A DNA stretch of 64,000 bases from Cytophagales bacterium (GTDB lineage: Bacteria > Bacteroidota > Bacteroidia > Cytophagales > 172606-1). Below, in pieces: positions 1,668 to 61,117 of this stretch. Under the pieces are notes generated by a model. That model had not been told where the DNA came from. It was given only the letters and a program-made list of their open reading frames with translations, and ran no database searches. A program made the translations under genes and the position numbers. How positions within the stretch are numbered: the first letter of the stretch is position 1; every line of letters begins with the position of its first letter. The stretch covers positions 26,418 through 90,417 of the forward strand of contig JAUJMU010000017.1 in NCBI GenBank assembly GCA_030446715.1. Direction: 5' to 3'.

Positions 1668-1735
1668 AGCAAGCAGCTATAAGCACAACGGAGGTTGCAA
1701 AAGTAGCAGCACGAAGCAGAGCTTCGCGCCATCAG
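1668..1735. repeat. Partial copy (right half) of the TIR/hairpin repeat family
   Basis: AGCAAGCAGCTATAAGCACAACGGAGGTTGCAAAA...GCACGAAGCAGAGCTTCGCGCCATCAG matches the right half of the copies at 11830-11980 and 14906-15048. Confidence 0.75.
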
Positions 1736-10578: not shown

Positions 10579-10850
10579 TGAAGAAAAGATAAACTACTAT
10601 TTGTTATATGAATCACTTTTATAAGTCGTAAACGGACAAGTGAATAAATTGGTGCGCAGACGCGCCAGCCAGTATCTGATGACCAACTGATCGCTCCACT
10701 AAAAAATGAGACGGTGTACATCCCGGTTTGGCTTTGCCGGACCAACGCCTCTTTACGGACCAGGCCCCTTTTCTACTCTCGCTGTCATCCCGGAAAGGCC
10801 TGTCCGGGATAAAGATTGTTCTTTTACACCAGACTTCTTGCGAAAGTAAA

Positions 10851-11354
10851 TTAAGCTGCTTTTAAGTGTGCATTATAGATGCCAGCAATCAAAGTAAAGC
10901 GTAAAGCAAAACGGGAATGATTACGATAGCGGTACCCGAGAAGTTTGAATATTTTGAGTTTACCAATCACGTGTTCGTTTCCAATGCGTTCACGGGCCAG
11001 TTGGCGATTGTGTCTTTTCTGCTGTTTGGTGAGCTTTTTGAGTTTAGTGTTCTTTTGTGGCAATTCCGGGTTGGGGTGCAAACGCTTTACGCCTAAGTAG
11101 CCTGAATCGGTTTTGAGTTTGATTTGAGGATGAATCCTGAGCTTGCTTTGCTTGTAGAGTTTGAAGTCATGACAAGCCCCTGGAGCAAAATCAAGACAGA
11201 TTACCTCTTTGGTATGGGCATTGACGACTACTTGGGTTTTGTTGACAAATCGCTTCTTTTTGCCTGAGTAGCTGCGTTTGCGCTTGGCAGAGCCCTTAAT
11301 CTTTCGACCCTTTCGGACTTTTTTCGGGTCTTGCCGTCGGCGTTCCGGTAGCAT
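10851..11354 (-). CDS. IS5-family transposase, DDE part (ORF B)
   Basis: RSYSGKKKRFVNKTQVVVNAHTKEVICLDFAPGACHDFKLYK...RERIGNEHVIGKLKIFKLLGYRYRN; overlaps ORF A in another frame around an A6 run. Confidence 0.8.
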   Translation of the reverse strand: MLPERRRQDPKKVRKGRKIKGSAKRKRSYSGKKKRFVNKTQVVVNAHTKEVICLDFAPGACHDFKLYKQSKLRIHPQIKLKTDSGYLGVKRLHPNPELPQKNTKLKKLTKQQKRHNRQLARERIGNEHVIGKLKIFKLLGYRYRNHSRFALRFTLIAGIYNAHLKAA

Positions 11355-11718
11355 CAGTGAGAATGGTTTGAATCTTGTCAGCCGACAGGAGCACTTTTTT
11401 GCCCGGCAAGTTGAAGTAGCCCGACTGGATCAAAATGCTTTCGATCTTTGCTACGGTGCGTTGTACGTTTGATTCGTCCAAACCATAATCGGTGCCGATG
11501 TGAAACAGGGTACGGTACTCCCGATAGTACTCAGGCGCCATCAGAATCTGGTCCCCGATACTCAGATGAGCCGTGCGACCCTCTTTCTTCTTGCGTTTTT
11601 GCTCATGTTCGCTTACCAACTTGACCATTACCTGGAAAACATCCTTATTTACACCAGTGTAGCGTTTGAACTTGGTCTTCGGGAGTTTCGATAGAACAGC
11701 GTACTTCTTGATTTCCAT
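11296..11718 (-). CDS. IS5-family transposase, N-terminal HTH part (ORF A)
   Basis: MEIKKYAVLSKLPKTKFKRYTGVNKDVFQVMV...YREYRTLFHIGTDYGLDESNVQRTVAKIE...ILTDATGTPTARPEK. Confidence 0.8.
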   Translation of the reverse strand: MEIKKYAVLSKLPKTKFKRYTGVNKDVFQVMVKLVSEHEQKRKKKEGRTAHLSIGDQILMAPEYYREYRTLFHIGTDYGLDESNVQRTVAKIESILIQSGYFNLPGKKVLLSADKIQTILTDATGTPTARPEKSPKGSKD

Positions 11719-11829
11719 CCCATCAATTTACCCCTATTCTCCCTATCTTTTCACTTCCGCAAGAAGTATACCATAAAAATGCCTGGCGGAGCCATTCGGG
11801 TTGACTGCGTCAACTGCGTTCGGCTTCTT

Positions 11830-11980
11830 CTGATGGCGCGAAGCTGTGCTTCGTGCCTTTTTTATTCCTGCCGCCTCCGGCGGAACCGGCTACGGGTGAA
11901 CCTGTTGCCGGCAGCAAGCAGCTATAAGCACAACAGAGGTTGCAAAACAGGCGGCACGAAGCAAAGCTTCGCGCCATCAG
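11830..11980. repeat. TIR/hairpin repeat element, full copy (151 bp)
   Basis: CTGATGGCGCGAAGCTGTGCTTCGTGCC ... GGCACGAAGCAAAGCTTCGCGCCATCAG (27/28 inverted match) with internal hairpins CCGCC-TCC-GGCGG and CCGGC...GCCGG. Confidence 0.85.
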
Positions 11981-12138
11981 GGATTGGAGACGGGAGATTT
12001 TAGACTTTTTCGCTCAGCCGGATCGGGTAATCCATTAAGGCGTTAACATTTTTTAACACACTTGCCGGCATCACCTGAATGATTAGCCCTTATCTTGAGG
12101 AGCCGTCTGATCAATTTCTAAATTCAGGTGTGTATTTC

Positions 12139-14791
12139 ATGAAGCTAATCCCTCTCTTGCTCCTCCTGCTGGTGTTTCCTCCGGCTGACGCTCAGACCCA
12201 CATTACCTTGTCGGGCAAAGTCACCGACAAAACCACGGGTGCAGCCCTGCCTTACGCCCCGATCCGGCTAGCCGGTACCAGCATCGGCACCACAAGCAAC
12301 CAGACCGGCGGTTTTATTTTCCGGATTCCGGCTGGCACACCGGGCCGGGTAGTGTCCTTTTCCTATTTAGGCTACCAATCAGTCGAATTAAATTGGCAAA
12401 ACAGGGATCAGCACGGACTGGCCATTGCCCTGGAGCCAAAGCCGGTAGATTTGCAGGAGGTGACCGTCAGACCTCCGGATCCGTTGCAGATCGTGATCCG
12501 CAGTCTTGAAAAAGTGGCCCGGAATTACCCTTCTGAACCCTACAAAGCCGAGGGTTTTCAACGGGAATACGTAACCGCTGACCGCTCCGTTATTCAGTTA
12601 CTGGAAGTCGCTTTCCGGTCCGTCGGAGCGGGTCAGTCGCAGTCAACCACTATCCTTGACGCCCGTTACCTGGAAGACAAAAAGGTAAAAGCCCCGCTCT
12701 GGAGTCCCTCAAGAGGAGGCTTTTACACCTTTGGCTGGACAAACATTTCGGGAACAGAATTACCCGATCCGAAGATGTTTCTGGGCATCACGCCCAAAAA
12801 AAAAAGTGATCTGGCCCGGTATTACACCTTCGACTTCAGGCAAATGAGCATTCTGGATTCGAAAGAGGTGTACGTGATTGACTTTGATCAGAAAAAGCAG
12901 GTGAGAAAACCCCTGCTGAAGGGCACCATCTATATTGATGCTGAGTCAGATGCCATCGTCAGACTGGAGCACCAGGTGAGTCCGCGCGGTTTACGCTTTC
13001 TCAAGACCCACCAAAGCTGGGGAGGCCAGACGATCAGCCGGTCACCCAAGCGCCTTACGGTTGGGCAGGACCGGTGGGTTACTACCTACCGGCAGTTCGG
13101 TAAAAAGTGGTATCTGAGCAGTCTGGTGATTGATACCGACTTTTCGGCTGCCTTGGTTTTCATGGGTCTGGTCCAGGGCCGCATGGATTCGCTGAAGCTC
13201 CATTCCGAACGCATCGTTACCGCTATCGACACCACAACCACTGCCAGTACGGTAACCGCAGCGGATGGAGGTACTGGTATTGCCGACGTAGGCAATATTC
13301 CAACCCTGCAGAACTTCATCAAAAAGGAATACGAGAACAAGGAATCGGCCTGGGCCAATGTAAACTTCATCCGGTCGGATACCGCCCTAGCGGACGTGGC
13401 CCGCCGCCTCCGGATCAGCAACGGGCAGTGGGAGGCAGAACGGCGCAAGCACCTCACCGGCAAGGCCCTGGCCCGGCAGGTATACACGGCCCGCCAGTTA
13501 ACCGAAGACCTTGCTTACCTGCGGGAAAGCCTGGAAAAGATTCATCCGGGAATCAACTGGTACACCGACAAAAGCAGTCTGGACCGGGCCTTTGACCAGC
13601 TGCAGGGCAAACTGGCCAAGACGACTTCCGAAGCAGACTTTTTCAGGCAGCTCAGTCCCCTGATCGAACAGATTCACTGCAGTCATACCGTATTATACCC
13701 GTCCCTTGCAACGGAGGAATACAATGCCCTCTTCACAAGAGAGTTTCCGCTGGACCTCTGGATAGCGGGTGATACGGCCCTGGTCTGTAAGGATTTCGGA
13801 GGAATCACCCGGGGCTCTGAATTAGTATCCGTCAATGGCCATAACCTGCCGGAGGTCATCCGGCAGATCCGAGCCGCTGTTGCTTCGGACGGATACAACC
13901 AGACCTATAAATCGTTTCTCCTCCGGCAGAGATTTCCCGCACTGTTTGCCCGGTATGTGCAACCGGCGGACACTTTTGAGGTAAAAATCAGGGATCAGAG
14001 CAGGCAGATGCGCACAGTCCGGCTGGCGGGAAGGGAGCGTACTGACTCTGATAGCGGATACGCAACGGCCCGGATCCATGAGCCGCTGCAAACTATGATT
14101 CTGAAAATTCCCTCTCTGGCAACGGATCAGGACTTTCCGGGTTTTCTGGCCGAAACGTTTCGCCGGATTGCTGAGCGACAGATCAGGACTCTGGTGATTG
14201 ATCTGCGCGATAATCAGGGCGGCAGAGATGAATACGGAGCCTTGTTATACGCCTATTTGGCCAGTGAGCCCTTCCGGTACTACAGGCGTATTTCAGTTGC
14301 CACTACGGATACTGCCTTGTTAAACAGATTGTCGGTTGGGGATTTACCCCTGCTGAAGGCAGCCCCCGGTTACCTTGCCGGCATAAGGGAAGCAGATGGA
14401 GGGTATGTTTATACGAACCATTCCGGCCTAGACCTTCAGCAGCCCCGGCCGGATGGCTTCAGCGGGAACCGTATACATCCTCATCAACGGAGGAACCGGT
14501 TCAGCCGCGGCTGAATTTGCCGCTATCGTCCGGAGCAATAAGCGGGGAATCTTTATCGGCCGTGAAGCAGGCGGCGGTTACTACGGAAACTGTAGCCTTG
14601 CCACGCCTGTGCTGACACTGCCACACTCCGGCATCAGGCTGGCTGTTCCCCTGGGCAGGTACGAACTGGCAGTCTCCCCGGGGGAGGCAGCCGGACATGG
14701 TGTAATTCCGGAGCACCAGACGGAAGACCTCCTGCTGGACCGGGACAGGGAGCTTGAAACCTGTTTTGATCTGATCAGGAATACTAAGTAG
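12139..14791 (+). pseudogene. S41 family peptidase with N-terminal carboxypeptidase-regulatory-like domain, frameshift near 14,458
   Basis: Signal peptide, ITLSGKVTDKTTGAALPYAPIRLAGTSIGTTSNQTGGF; later TLVIDLRDNQGGRDEYGALLYAYL and, in the next frame, SAGTVYILINGGTGSAAAEFAAIVRSNKRG. Confidence 0.8.
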
Positions 14792-14895
14792 TTGTTGGTT
14801 ATTAGTTGCTCGTTGTTCGGCAAATAGACGTCTTACAATCAGATTGTTACCAAAAGACCAGTGCCGGATTACTTTTGCCCGGATACTTAAAATCA
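14789..14895 (+). repeat. Intergenic repeat family B, copy 1 (ends in a TAnnTTTG promoter-like box)
   Basis: TAGTTGTTGGTTATTAGTTGCTCGTTGTTCGGCAAATAGACGTCTTACAATC...TTACTTTTGCCCGGAT, alignable over ~100 bp to 37,284-37,385. Confidence 0.65.
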
Positions 14896-14905
14896 GGTAT
14901 AGTCT

Positions 14906-15048
14906 CTGATGGCGCGAAGCGCTAACCGTGCCTTTTTTATTCCTGCCGCCTCCGGCGGAACCGGCTACGGGTGAACTTGTTGCCGGCAGCGATAAGCAAC
15001 CAGAGGTTGCAAAACATGCGGCACGAAGCTAGCGCTTCGCGCCATCAG
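14906..15048. repeat. TIR/hairpin repeat element, full copy (143 bp)
   Basis: CTGATGGCGCGAAGCGCTA ... TAGCGCTTCGCGCCATCAG (19-bp perfect inverted ends); core GAACCGGCTACGGGTGAACTTGTTGCCGGCAG...GCAACCAGAGGTTGC shared with 11830-11980. Confidence 0.85.
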
Positions 15049-37230: not shown

Positions 37231-37283
37231 GGTGGTTGACACGTTTGTGTTACATCCGGCCGGATCAAACAACGCCCCGCTTA

Positions 37284-37385
37284 AGTAGTTGTTGGTTGTC
37301 AGTTGCTCGTTATTTAACAAATAACCGTCTTATAATCAAATCATTACGAAAAGACAAATGCCCTATACTTTTGCACGGATCCTCA
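37284..37385 (+). repeat. Intergenic repeat family B, copy 2
   Basis: TAGTTGTTGGTTGTCAGTTGCTCGTTATTTAACAAATAACCGTCTTATAATC...TATACTTTTGCACGGAT; parallels 14,789-14,895. Confidence 0.65.
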
Positions 37386-40758: not shown

Positions 40759-41463
40759 CTATGCACCCGCCGCCCTGCCTTCTTCAACCGGTTCAATGAT
40801 ATCTCCCACGCAGGTAATCAGGTCGGGCCCGTTGTTGGTGGCCTTGTTTACTTGGCGGCTCACCTCCACGGCCCGCATCCGGGAGGCGGGGTAAGGCTGT
40901 AAAAGCGCAAATGCTTCTTCGAATGAAGCTTTGGAATCAATCCAGCGGTGAGCCGTATCAGCCGGCAGCACGGCAGGCATCCGGTCATGCAACCGTTGCA
41001 TAAAAGGATTGGCCTCCATCGTGATAATGGCAAAAGTGGGGATTTCTTCGCCGGTTTCGCGGTTTACCCATCGGTTCCAGATGCCTGCAAACGCAAACAG
41101 TTCCTGGTCCGTCGGCCGGATGCTGTAGGGTGTCTTGACTTTCCCCGCAGCCCGCCACTCGTAGAAACTGTTGGCCAGCACCAGGCACCGCTGCTGCCGC
41201 ACCGCTTTCCGGAAAGAGGCTTTTTCAGTGATTCCTTCCATGCGGGCATTGATCATCTTGTAACCGGCGTTCTCCTCCTTTGCCCAGTCCGGGATAAGTC
41301 CCCACCGGAAAAACTGCACCCGTCCGGGGCTCTCATTGGTGATAACGGGCAGGTTCCGGGCCGGGGCCGCGTTGAAGTTGGCGGGGAAGTTTCCTTCCAC
41401 CTGGGCCGCAAACTGGCTTTCCACCTGCGCTGCGTCCAGTAAAATGGCATATCTTCCGCACAT
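40759..41463 (-). CDS. SOS response-associated peptidase (SRAP/YedK/HMCES family)
   Basis: MCGRYAILL...ANFNAAPARNLPVI...RWGLIPDWAKEENAGYKMINARMEGITEKASFRKAVRQQRCLVLANSFYEW. Confidence 0.93.
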   Translation of the reverse strand: MCGRYAILLDAAQVESQFAAQVEGNFPANFNAAPARNLPVITNESPGRVQFFRWGLIPDWAKEENAGYKMINARMEGITEKASFRKAVRQQRCLVLANSFYEWRAAGKVKTPYSIRPTDQELFAFAGIWNRWVNRETGEEIPTFAIITMEANPFMQRLHDRMPAVLPADTAHRWIDSKASFEEAFALLQPYPASRMRAVEVSRQVNKATNNGPDLITCVGDIIEPVEEGRAAGA

Positions 41464-41573
41464 AATTAGTTACTGGTTATTAGTTGTTCGATGTTAGTAA
41501 GATAAAACGATTAAAATCAGTTCATTACATTCATTCATGAAAAAACGGGACTTGTCCGGGACAAGTACCATTG

Positions 41574-48385: not shown

Positions 48386-49729
48386 GTGAAAAGAAGTCAC
48401 TTTCTTTCGGGCTTATCTACCTGCCCAGCCCGATTCATGTACCGCATTACCCTCCTCTGGCTGATTTCAGCCGCTCTTCTCTCTGCCTGCGGCCCGACAG
48501 CCAAAGTCCGCCGGACGCTGAAAAAATCCACCGTCCTCAACCGGCACTTTACCGGCTTCGCTCTCTTTGACCCGGCTACCGGCCGGATGCTGGTGCAACA
48601 GAACGCCGGCAAGTATTTTACTCCCGCCTCCAACACCAAGCTTTTTACTTTCTATACCTCCCTGCGCGTACTGGGCGACTCGGTGCCGGCGCTGAAATAC
48701 GCGGTTCTGAACGATACCCTTTTTTTCCGGGGCACCGGCGACCCATCCCTGCTACACCCCGATTTCCAGAATCCGGCGGTGTACAATTTACTGAAGGACC
48801 GGCCGGAAAGGCTTGTTTTTGTGCAGGAGCGGCAGCCGGTACCCCACTACGGCGCGGGCTGGAGTTGGGATGATTACAACGATTCTTATTCGCCGGAAAA
48901 GGCGGCCCTGCCCATTTATGGTAATATTGTGCGGTTTTCGGGAGAAGCAACTGGCCTGCTGCGGGCACAGCCGGATTATTTCCGTACCGGCGTTACCACC
49001 GGAGAGCCGGGCCGGCGGGCAAATTCAATTTTTATCCGTGATCTGGAGAGCAACCGGTTTATCTATCACACCGGCACGGTAACCCGGCCATTCACGCAGG
49101 ATGTTCCCTTCCGCTATTCCGTGCCGCTGGCCATGCAACTGCTGGCCGATACCCTCAGGCGGGAGGTAAGCTGGACCAGTTACCGGCCGCTGCCCGGCAC
49201 TCAGGTACTGTATGGCATCCCCGCCGATACCCTGTACCGCAAGCTGATGCAGGACAGCGACAATTTCATTGCCGAGCAACTGCTGCTGATGGGCTCCTCG
49301 CTGCTGTTTGATTCGCTGAGTACGGAGGGCATGATCAGCTATGCCAGGCAAAATCTATTGGCTGACCTGCCCGACCCGCCGGTGTGGGTGGATGGTTCGG
49401 GCTTGTCGCGGTACAATCTGTTTACACCCCGTACCATGATTTCCCTCTTGCAGAAAATTCAGCGGCAGATTCCGCAGGAAAGACTCTTCAGCATTTTGCC
49501 GGCTGGCGGCCGCAGCGGCACCCTGCGCAACTGGTACGGCGACGATAAGCCGTTTGTATTTGCCAAAACCGGCACCCTGAGCAACGTACACTGTCTGAGC
49601 GGCTACGTGGTGACCACGAAAGGAAAGATTCTGATTTTCAGTTTTATGCACAATAACTTTACCACCCCCACCAACGACATCCGGCGGGAAATGGACAAGG
49701 TACTGAGGATTGCAGCGGGGAGAAAGTGA
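48386..49729 (+). CDS. dacB: D-alanyl-D-alanine carboxypeptidase/endopeptidase (PBP4 type, peptidase S13)
   Basis: FTPASNTKLFTFYTSLRVLGDSVPALKYAV (SxxK); DSDNFIAEQLLL; WVDGSGLSRYNLFTPRTMI; FAKTGTLSNVHCLSGY (KTG). Confidence 0.9.
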   Translation: MKRSHFLSGLSTCPARFMYRITLLWLISAALLSACGPTAKVRRTLKKSTVLNRHFTGFALFDPATGRMLVQQNAGKYFTPASNTKLFTFYTSLRVLGDSVPALKYAVLNDTLFFRGTGDPSLLHPDFQNPAVYNLLKDRPERLVFVQERQPVPHYGAGWSWDDYNDSYSPEKAALPIYGNIVRFSGEATGLLRAQPDYFRTGVTTGEPGRRANSIFIRDLESNRFIYHTGTVTRPFTQDVPFRYSVPLAMQLLADTLRREVSWTSYRPLPGTQVLYGIPADTLYRKLMQDSDNFIAEQLLLMGSSLLFDSLSTEGMISYARQNLLADLPDPPVWVDGSGLSRYNLFTPRTMISLLQKIQRQIPQERLFSILPAGGRSGTLRNWYGDDKPFVFAKTGTLSNVHCLSGYVVTTKGKILIFSFMHNNFTTPTNDIRREMDKVLRIAAGRK

Positions 49730-49730
49730 G

Positions 49731-49823
49731 TAGTTGTTGGTTATTGGTTATTCGGTGCTCAGGGAGTCGAATATCAGTGTCTGCTTCCGGAAAAATCGAA
49801 CAACGAACAACCAATAACTACTT
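49731..49823. repeat. Family-B-like sequence arranged as an inverted repeat between convergent genes
   Basis: TAGTTGTTGGTTATTGGTTATTCGG ... CGAACAACGAACAACCAATAACTA. Confidence 0.65.
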
Positions 49824-56724: not shown

Positions 56725-56806
56725 TGAAACGAAAGAAATACCTGATGCTAAACTTGAATCACGGATGATGTAAACCAGAATGTTGGTGTCGTAGAGTACA
56801 GCCATG
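56725..56806 (-). pseudogene. Truncated VapC-like PIN toxin N-terminus
   Basis: MAVLYDTNILVYIIRDSSLASGI right after the antitoxin stop; same start as the PIN protein at 60,660, then unrelated sequence. Confidence 0.65.
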
Positions 56807-56812
56807 GGAAAA

Positions 56813-57007
56813 CTACTTCTGATTAAGAATCTTAATGGCTTTTTTCATATCCCGTTCACTGATCCGGATCTTGCCGGCTATTTTTTCGGTGACCGGCTGG
56901 TGTCCGATCTTTCGGGCATATGCTTCCACACCCCCGGCCCGCATAACCGCATTAGCAGAATGCACGACCAGTTTTTTCTTGGGCTCAGACTTGGTTTTAG
57001 TATTCAT
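56813..57007 (-). CDS. Putative antitoxin (copy 1)
   Basis: MNTKTKSEPKKKLVVHSANAVMRAGGVEAYARKIGHQPVTEKIAGKIRISERDMKKAIKILNQK; near-identical to 60,456 copy; strong AAGGAGGTG SD. Confidence 0.6.
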   Translation of the reverse strand: MNTKTKSEPKKKLVVHSANAVMRAGGVEAYARKIGHQPVTEKIAGKIRISERDMKKAIKILNQK

Positions 57008-57207
57008 GGTGCACCTCCTTACAGTTTATAATACTACAACAAATAAAACGTGATCTAAGAATGATTTAGGTTTACTTAGCTAAAGGTACGGGTTTTGCAA
57101 TTGCAAATTCAGAATTAACAGGGTTATAATAAGCACCAGCCAGAATGATGCCGTTGACTTGCATGTATAAATTTACTAGCTTTTAACCACCTAAATTTAT
57201 ACACGCC

Positions 57208-59868: not shown

Positions 59869-60455
59869 TTGTTTGAAAGGACGGAAAAATGGTAGAGGTA
59901 CCAGGCACGTGTGGCAAGGACAATGTGATGAGCTTCGCGCCTTGAAAAAATGTCTGATCATCATCGTATCCAATTTCTCTGATGATGCTTTTGAAATTAT
60001 GCAGTGGAATTGCTGTTTGTTTTGCGAGTGTCTCCCAAAAATACTTCGTGATTCTTCGGTTAACGCTCTCGCTTTTTCAAGGTGTGAAGGTGAAAAAGAG
60101 GCCCATATTTCTGCCATTTGGAGCAATATACGGGGCCGGAACAAGCGGTTAGCAGGTTATTGTATGTAAGCGCAGGTGGTGGAGAAATAAAGAAGAAAAA
60201 TTATATTTATTAGCTTTAGCTGTCCTGCCGTAACAGACAAACCGGAAAAAAGCTGTTCCGTGGTTTACTACAGACATGCTCAATCTGATCCTTATAAGTT
60301 GTTTCTTAATACCACTTTACTGCAACTGGCTACGGGTCTGGGGATAAGCAGTTGACCGGGCACCACGTGAGGTTGCTTTTCTACCTGATTGGCAGTGTGC
60401 AACTTTCTGTTTTCAATTTTTTGTTGTAGCATTAAGATATGAAAGGAGGCGCTTC

Positions 60456-60650
60456 ATGAATACTAAAACCAAGTCTGAGCCACAAAAAAAATTGGTCGTG
60501 CACTCAGCAAATGCGGTTATGAGGGCTGGCGGCCTGGCAGCCTATGCTCGTAAAATCGGACACCAGCCGGTTACCGAAAAGATAGCCGGCACAATCCGGA
60601 TCAGTGACCGGGACATGAAAAAGTCGAAAAAATCCTTAACCAGAAGTAGT
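60456..60650 (+). CDS. Putative antitoxin (copy 2); reads into toxin through a 1-nt frame change
   Basis: MNTKTKSEPQKKLVVHSANAVMRAGGLAAYARKIGHQPVTEKIAGTIRISDRDMKK; alternate frame restores VEKILNQK*; AAAGGAGGCG SD. Confidence 0.6.
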
Positions 60651-60659
60651 AGTTTTCCC

Positions 60660-61117
60660 GTGGCCGTTCTCTACGACACCAACATTCTGGTGTACATTAT
60701 CCGGGACACCAGCCTTGGAGCGAAAAAATCCGGAATCTGGTGAATCCCGGCAATGAAGACGAAGCCATTTCCCTTGTAACCGTGGGTGAAATCCGTTCGC
60801 TAGCCCTGCAATTAGGATGGGGGCCGCTGCGCGTTTCTAAAATGGAAGAAGTACTGGCAGAATTGATTGTGCTTGATATAAATAATGAGGTGATTCTCGA
60901 CCGGTACGTGGCCATCGATGCCTACAGCCAGCGTAAACACCCCACAATCCAGTATCTGGGTACCCCGCGCAACATGGGAAAAAACGATTTGTGGATAGCG
61001 GCGACAGCCAGTGCATTTGAACTAACGCTGAAAGGAACTGACAGCGATTTTGAACACTTAAATCAAGTTTTCTCTCCTTTCACATCATCAGTCCTGAACG
61101 ATTCAGGTAAAATTTGA
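60660..61117 (+). pseudogene. VapC-like PIN-domain toxin, frameshift at A6 run (~60,726)
   Basis: VAVLYDTNILVYIIRDTSL / IRNLVNPGNEDEAISLVTVGEIRSLALQLGWG...PRNMGKNDLWIAATASAFELTLKGTDSDFEHLNQVF. Confidence 0.75.

Follow-up and report, generated by a model that had tools for sequence, protein, structure and literature searches.

Dispersed inverted repeats in a Cytophagales genome are very probably REPINs of a Bacteroidota RAYT lineage associated with a 10-3-10 hairpin

Two full copies and a half copy of a repeat with inverted arms lie within a 64,000-nucleotide stretch of a Cytophagales genome (hereafter the window), which is part of a draft genome of 6.43 Mb that is about 98% complete (contig C11). 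What kind of element might they be? A first-pass annotation, made from the letters alone, placed the three copies correctly (Table 1) and read them as either a structured element of the MITE or REP type or a structured RNA. We asked which of these readings the repeats fit, and in particular whether they could be REPINs, in which two inverted REPs would form one small non-autonomous mobile unit.

Table 1. Features of the probable REPINs in the window (copies numbered by position)
Feature	Position	Strand	Remark
REP singlet (half REPIN)	1668..1735	-	right arm with inner hairpin
Singlet, REP 23-mer	about 1708-1730	-	foot ATC at 1731-1733
Copy 2, REPIN	11830..11980	.	two inverted REPs and inner hairpins
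Copy 2, left REP foot	11832-11834		GAT
Copy 2, left REP hairpin	11835..11857	+	GGCGCGAAGC-TGT-GCTTCGTGCC; G.T at stem pair 4
Copy 2, inner hairpin	11871..11883	+	CCGCC-TCC-GGCGG
Copy 2, right REP hairpin	11953..11975	-	GGCGCGAAGC-TTT-GCTTCGTGCC, read on the reverse strand
Copy 3, REPIN	14906..15048	.	left REP partly decayed
Copy 3, decayed left REP	14911..14932	+	GGCGCGAAGCGCTAACCGTGCC
Copy 3, inner hairpin	14946..14958	+	CCGCC-TCC-GGCGG
Copy 3, inner hairpin	14996..15010	+	GCAACC-AGA-GGTTGC; adjoins the right arm
Copy 3, right REP	15020..15043	-	GGCGCGAAGC-GCTA-GCTTCGTGCC, read on the reverse strand; 4-nt loop

The pairing reported for the arms was reproduced: those of copy 2 (11830-11857 and 11953-11980) pair at 27 of 28 positions, and those of copy 3 pair perfectly over 19 nt and for a few further bases outward (tagtCTGATGG.../...CCATCAGacta). 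The half copy shares 91% identity with 11913-11980. Both full copies sit between long ORFs, and on either strand their predicted folding is far stronger than that of dinucleotide shuffles (z from -8.1 to -9.3), none of which folded as well. Because part of the hairpin is gone from its left arm (GCGCGAAGCGCTAACCGTGC), copy 3 is probably a relic.

Other features of the window were observed alongside. A likely carboxypeptidase-regulatory plus S41-type peptidase gene at 12079-14791 is divided between two frames that overlap (12079-14514 and 14453-14791), suggestive of a frameshift. Another dispersed repeat (AGTAGTTGTTGGTTATTAGTTGCTCGTTGTTC) is found at 14785-14865, 37282-37362, 41463-41543 and 49729-49760, in one case beginning directly behind the stop codon of the gene that precedes copy 3. 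A pair of long inverted repeats (56759-57046 and 60417-60706, about 3.4 kb apart) is complementary at 84% over 206 nt and at 89% over another 62 nt.

Each arm of the element is a REP by itself, made of a foot and a 23-nt imperfect palindrome of the form GGCGCGAAGC-NNN-GCTTCGTGCC. When the copies of the window's own genome were compared, an arm read as the foot GAT, followed by [GA]GCGCGAAGC, three loop bases and GCTTCGTGC[CT]; the corresponding foot in the genome of a sister species of the same genus (G001) is GCT. The canonical 5' GT[AG]G foot is absent, the arms carrying GATA or GATG in the own genome and GCTG in the sister genome. Among 60 arms from two genomes, the fourth stem pair is G.T in 58, and pairs 2, 3 and 5 to 10 are Watson-Crick in 93-100%. 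A second set of hairpins lies inside the arms, with CCGCC-TCC-GGCGG beside one arm and AAACC-AGA-GGTTT or GCAACC-AGA-GGTTGC beside the other; the CCGCC hairpin is retained in most copies, and it also occurs in sister-genome arms. The centre of the element is variable, several copies (for example L042 and L044) contain further palindromic repeats, and the length ranges from 140 to 850 bp, with other repeats and even genes enclosed. The unit is therefore a pair of hairpin arms in inverted orientation around a variable middle. At one own-genome locus (C8:318815-319658; L041:2816-3659), a REPIN encloses an intact pair of small genes, the second of which matches the PemK/MazF toxin (Pfam PF02452). 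This REPIN adjoins another of 233 bp, and since their right flanks are nearly identical, a partial duplication of the region is probable.

The arms were counted with a pattern search that allowed up to two mismatches and misses decayed arms. It returned 36 arms in the own genome (17+19) and 105 in the sister genome (55+50), compared with zero for the reversed control pattern, which bears out the proposal of a dispersed family. The own-genome number is modest for REPs; the other relatives searched gave no arm matches, or one to two scattered ones. In the sister genome, 72 of the 100 listed arms make up 36 inward-facing doublets of 212-695 bp, and neighbouring listed arms within 1 kb were arranged as '+-' 36 times versus '-+' once. 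Homology between the two genomes extends over about 57 bp and takes in the REP together with the CCGCC inner hairpin. A search of the sister genome for empty sites matched the arms only and not the flanks, no excision product was seen, and plasmid and phage collections gave no match at distant sensitivity. Around the sister-genome doublets (flanks of L093-L108), the palindrome extends beyond the REP (GGGCTGGCGCGgtatagcg...), and the doublet middles contain a further palindromic family (GGCGCAGGCGTCCGCCTGTGCC).

It had been suggested that a RAYT (REP-associated tyrosine transposase) with the same ends be sought. Such a gene is present in the sister genome (contig C285, L108:883-1410), between the REPINs at L108:491-737 and L108:1490-1720, and matches the NCBIfam model NF047646 REP_Tyr_transpos with 101 bits (cut-off 80). 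It is the one among seven Y1-transposase matches of that genome that stands between two doublets of the family; none of these arms was found near the other six, and those of the other genes that were read out adjoin different palindromes. RAYTs are marked by the motifs NH[LIV]H, WQ and YIH[QN]NP, and their subclass 2.6 has been described (PMC6006769). The sister-genome protein has SHLH (with N replaced by S in NH[LIV]H), FWQ and YIHQNP, and retains the catalytic HLH ... Y, with H59, H61 and Y144 invariant in the alignment. TnpA-REP (4er8) is its sole solved relative by sequence. Judged by sequence, its spacing and motifs fit subclass 2.6, or RAYT group 5, of the Bacteroidetes TnpA-REP proteins (PMC6006769): the HLH, WQ and YIHQNP motifs are shared, 83 residues separate HuH from Tyr where the published median is 82, and the flanking REPs likewise have no GT[AG]G.

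At the completeness of this draft, the window's own genome yielded no cognate RAYT. Three RAYT-like genes and a frameshifted one are present, and none looks like the cognate: the nearest to the sister-genome RAYT has 48% identity and sits among GGTTCAAGCGTGGACGCTTGAACC repeats, the frameshifted gene has a singlet arm about 0.6 kb off but its own, different GTTGTTGGTG hairpins nearer, and the remaining ones have none of these arms nearby. In keeping with one RAYT per REP family, the other RAYTs of both genomes are mostly accompanied by visibly different hairpins. The own-genome RAYT-like genes (L059-L062 and L160) each stand beside their own palindrome (GGTTCAAGCGTGGACGCTTGAACC; GGGCAGACACAGGGGTCTGCCC; CCCACGGTT-type; GTTGTTGGTG-type), and an IS200/IS605 TnpA accompanied by a disrupted TnpB frame was also observed. 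Given the apparent absence of the cognate RAYT, we infer that the own-genome copies are no longer mobile, unless the gene sits in an assembly gap; they are probably an orphan, decaying population.

The hairpin of the arms, with two 10-nt stem halves and a 3-nt loop (10-3-10), recurs beside related enzymes. It occurs within about 300 bp of 58 of 99 related Bacteroidota RAYT genes, compared with 2.0 in shuffles that preserve base composition only and not dinucleotides, and in 30 of the 99 it bears G.T at pair 4 (0.1 in the same shuffles). The G.T-bearing hairpin stands on both sides of the gene in 17 of these 30, its loop starts with T in 29, and its commonest foot is GCT (17). Among a further 20 RAYT genes, which come partly from genomes sampled already and are not wholly independent, 16 have the 10-3-10 hairpin (0.5 expected) and 7 have G.T at pair 4 (0.0 expected). 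The plan is common in subclass 2.6 RAYTs; it is not universal, because the remaining genes either lack such a hairpin or have one with a perfect stem or a different wobble. REP type and RAYT lineage are inherited together, REP types being clustered on the RAYT tree with 10 changes where label shuffling gave 19.6 (none of 500 shuffles was as low). The closest RAYTs to the sister-genome protein on this tree are from two Dyadobacter genomes, each of which holds only three near matches to the arms, and the RAYT of Dyadobacter sp. CY323 adjoins GGCGCGAAGG-TCC-CCTTCGTGCC, almost the same hairpin.

Because the arms form inverted doublets, a RAYT lies between two copies in the sister genome and its Dyadobacter relative lies beside nearly the same hairpin, we are highly confident that the repeats are REPINs of the type tied to Bacteroidota RAYTs of subclass 2.6 (group 5); a RAYT would have moved them. 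The REP part of the original reading thus stands, carried by the RAYT that the family flanks on both sides in the sister genome. The cognate enzyme, a RAYT or TnpA-REP, would act as a single-strand HUH endonuclease that binds the REP as a hairpin folded in single-stranded DNA. The right strand might be identified by the foot and by the G.T at stem pair 4, the enzyme would cut beside the foot, and the doublet would then be moved or copied into other intergenic sites. The movement by the RAYT and the details of cutting are deduced from sequence comparison.

A dispersed element of about 150 bp with terminal inverted repeats might instead be a MITE of a DDE insertion sequence, its arms being double-stranded transposon ends, and an IS5-family transposase (two ORFs, 10851-11718) does adjoin copy 2. 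However, the inverted repeats of this IS5-like element (10822-11778), located at 10822-10850 and 11750-11778 (TTTTACACC...), are unrelated to CTGATGGCGCGAAGC, which rules out a MITE of this particular neighbour. The window copies show no visible target duplication, the arms are each self-complementary and form a hairpin with a fixed G.T, and members of the family stand on both sides of the sister-genome RAYT, so that we give a DDE origin hardly any credence. The REPINs could also be kept for a role in the host, such as ending transcription, stabilising mRNA or binding nucleoid proteins, rather than as mobile units. Known REPs fill such roles (PMC6006769), and the copies persist in the own genome after the apparent loss of their RAYT. 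Their positions differ, however, with copy 2 placed between divergent genes and not at a 3' end, and the own-genome copies are diverging, one arm of copy 3 having decayed. We consider retention for a host role unlikely, but it is compatible with the REPIN explanation.

The strong predicted folds might also suggest a family of structured non-coding RNAs, in which base pairs are kept by compensatory change. In 12 own-genome copies, 90% of the arm-arm pairs are standard, double changes occur at four pairs and the covariation score exceeds all 500 shuffles. Yet two outer subfamily positions near the ends account for most of the double changes, pairs in the loop are broken in 2 to 6 of the 12 copies, the variable length and the enclosed repeats and genes do not suit an RNA, and the sole Rfam match in the window is a tRNA. 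The first-pass annotation had stated that both arms changed together; this is true of copy 3 (GCTA/TAGC) and of L113 (GCGG/CCGC) and fails for most own-genome copies, where the two loops agree fully in 4 of 12 doublets and agreement within a doublet is at the level of random partners (p=0.26). In the sister genome, loops are identical in 24 of 36 doublets compared with 15.9 expected (p=0.0009), and over the 14 nt outside the REP the arms agree in 402 of 518 comparisons against 329 when permuted (p=0.0002), a concordance stronger than that within the REP. Strict arm-arm co-variation was therefore rejected, being at chance level in one genome and not confined to the hairpin in the other. Since agreement is stronger outside the REP, inheritance or homogenisation of whole palindromes explains it without selection on an RNA, and the co-variation mostly reflects subfamily descent or the homogenisation of whole doublets. 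Compensatory changes have also been reported for REPINs (Bertels and Rainey 2011, PMC3116915). We consider a structured RNA very unlikely.

The REPINs described here resemble those of Pseudomonas fluorescens SBW25 (PMC3116915) in forming one long hairpin from inverted REP doublets, in their variable spacer, in singlets as decayed remnants, in the cognate RAYT beside copies and in hairpins that are often altered on both sides. They differ in the foot (GAT/GCT versus GTAG/GTGG-type), in doublet length (140-850 bp versus about 71-110 bp), in their second, inner hairpins and in a RAYT of another group. The REPs of Escherichia coli (PMC8266576) are likewise imperfect palindromes with a conserved stem irregularity and strand-specific recognition, which we propose here, but they combine a GTAG foot with an AA/GC bulge, whereas the stems here have one G.T wobble and the foot lacks GTAG. 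For subclass 2.6, manual inspection had described 'atypical', weaker structures (PMC6006769), in contrast to the 10-3-10 hairpins reported here, which often have an invariant G.T at pair 4.

An unexplained repeat can now be assigned to a known mobile system and tied to its cognate RAYT. The main new point is that many subclass 2.6 RAYTs share the 10-3-10 plan, often with G.T at pair 4. We hypothesise from the sequences that the wobble may serve as a recognition code; it is possible, if somewhat short of probable, that subclass 2.6 RAYTs read a non-GTAG code consisting of a [CA]T foot, a three-base loop starting with T and a fixed G.T pair 4 by which the correct strand is recognised. If so, the wobble would perform the strand discrimination that is done in Proteobacteria by GTAG and the bulge. 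For many members of group 5 / subclass 2.6, the vague entry of 'atypical secondary structures' gives way to a testable plan, a hairpin of about 23 nt whose 10-bp stem closes on a 3-nt loop, with G.T at pair 4 and a [CA]T foot as frequent features, which makes DNA recognition by these RAYTs directly testable.
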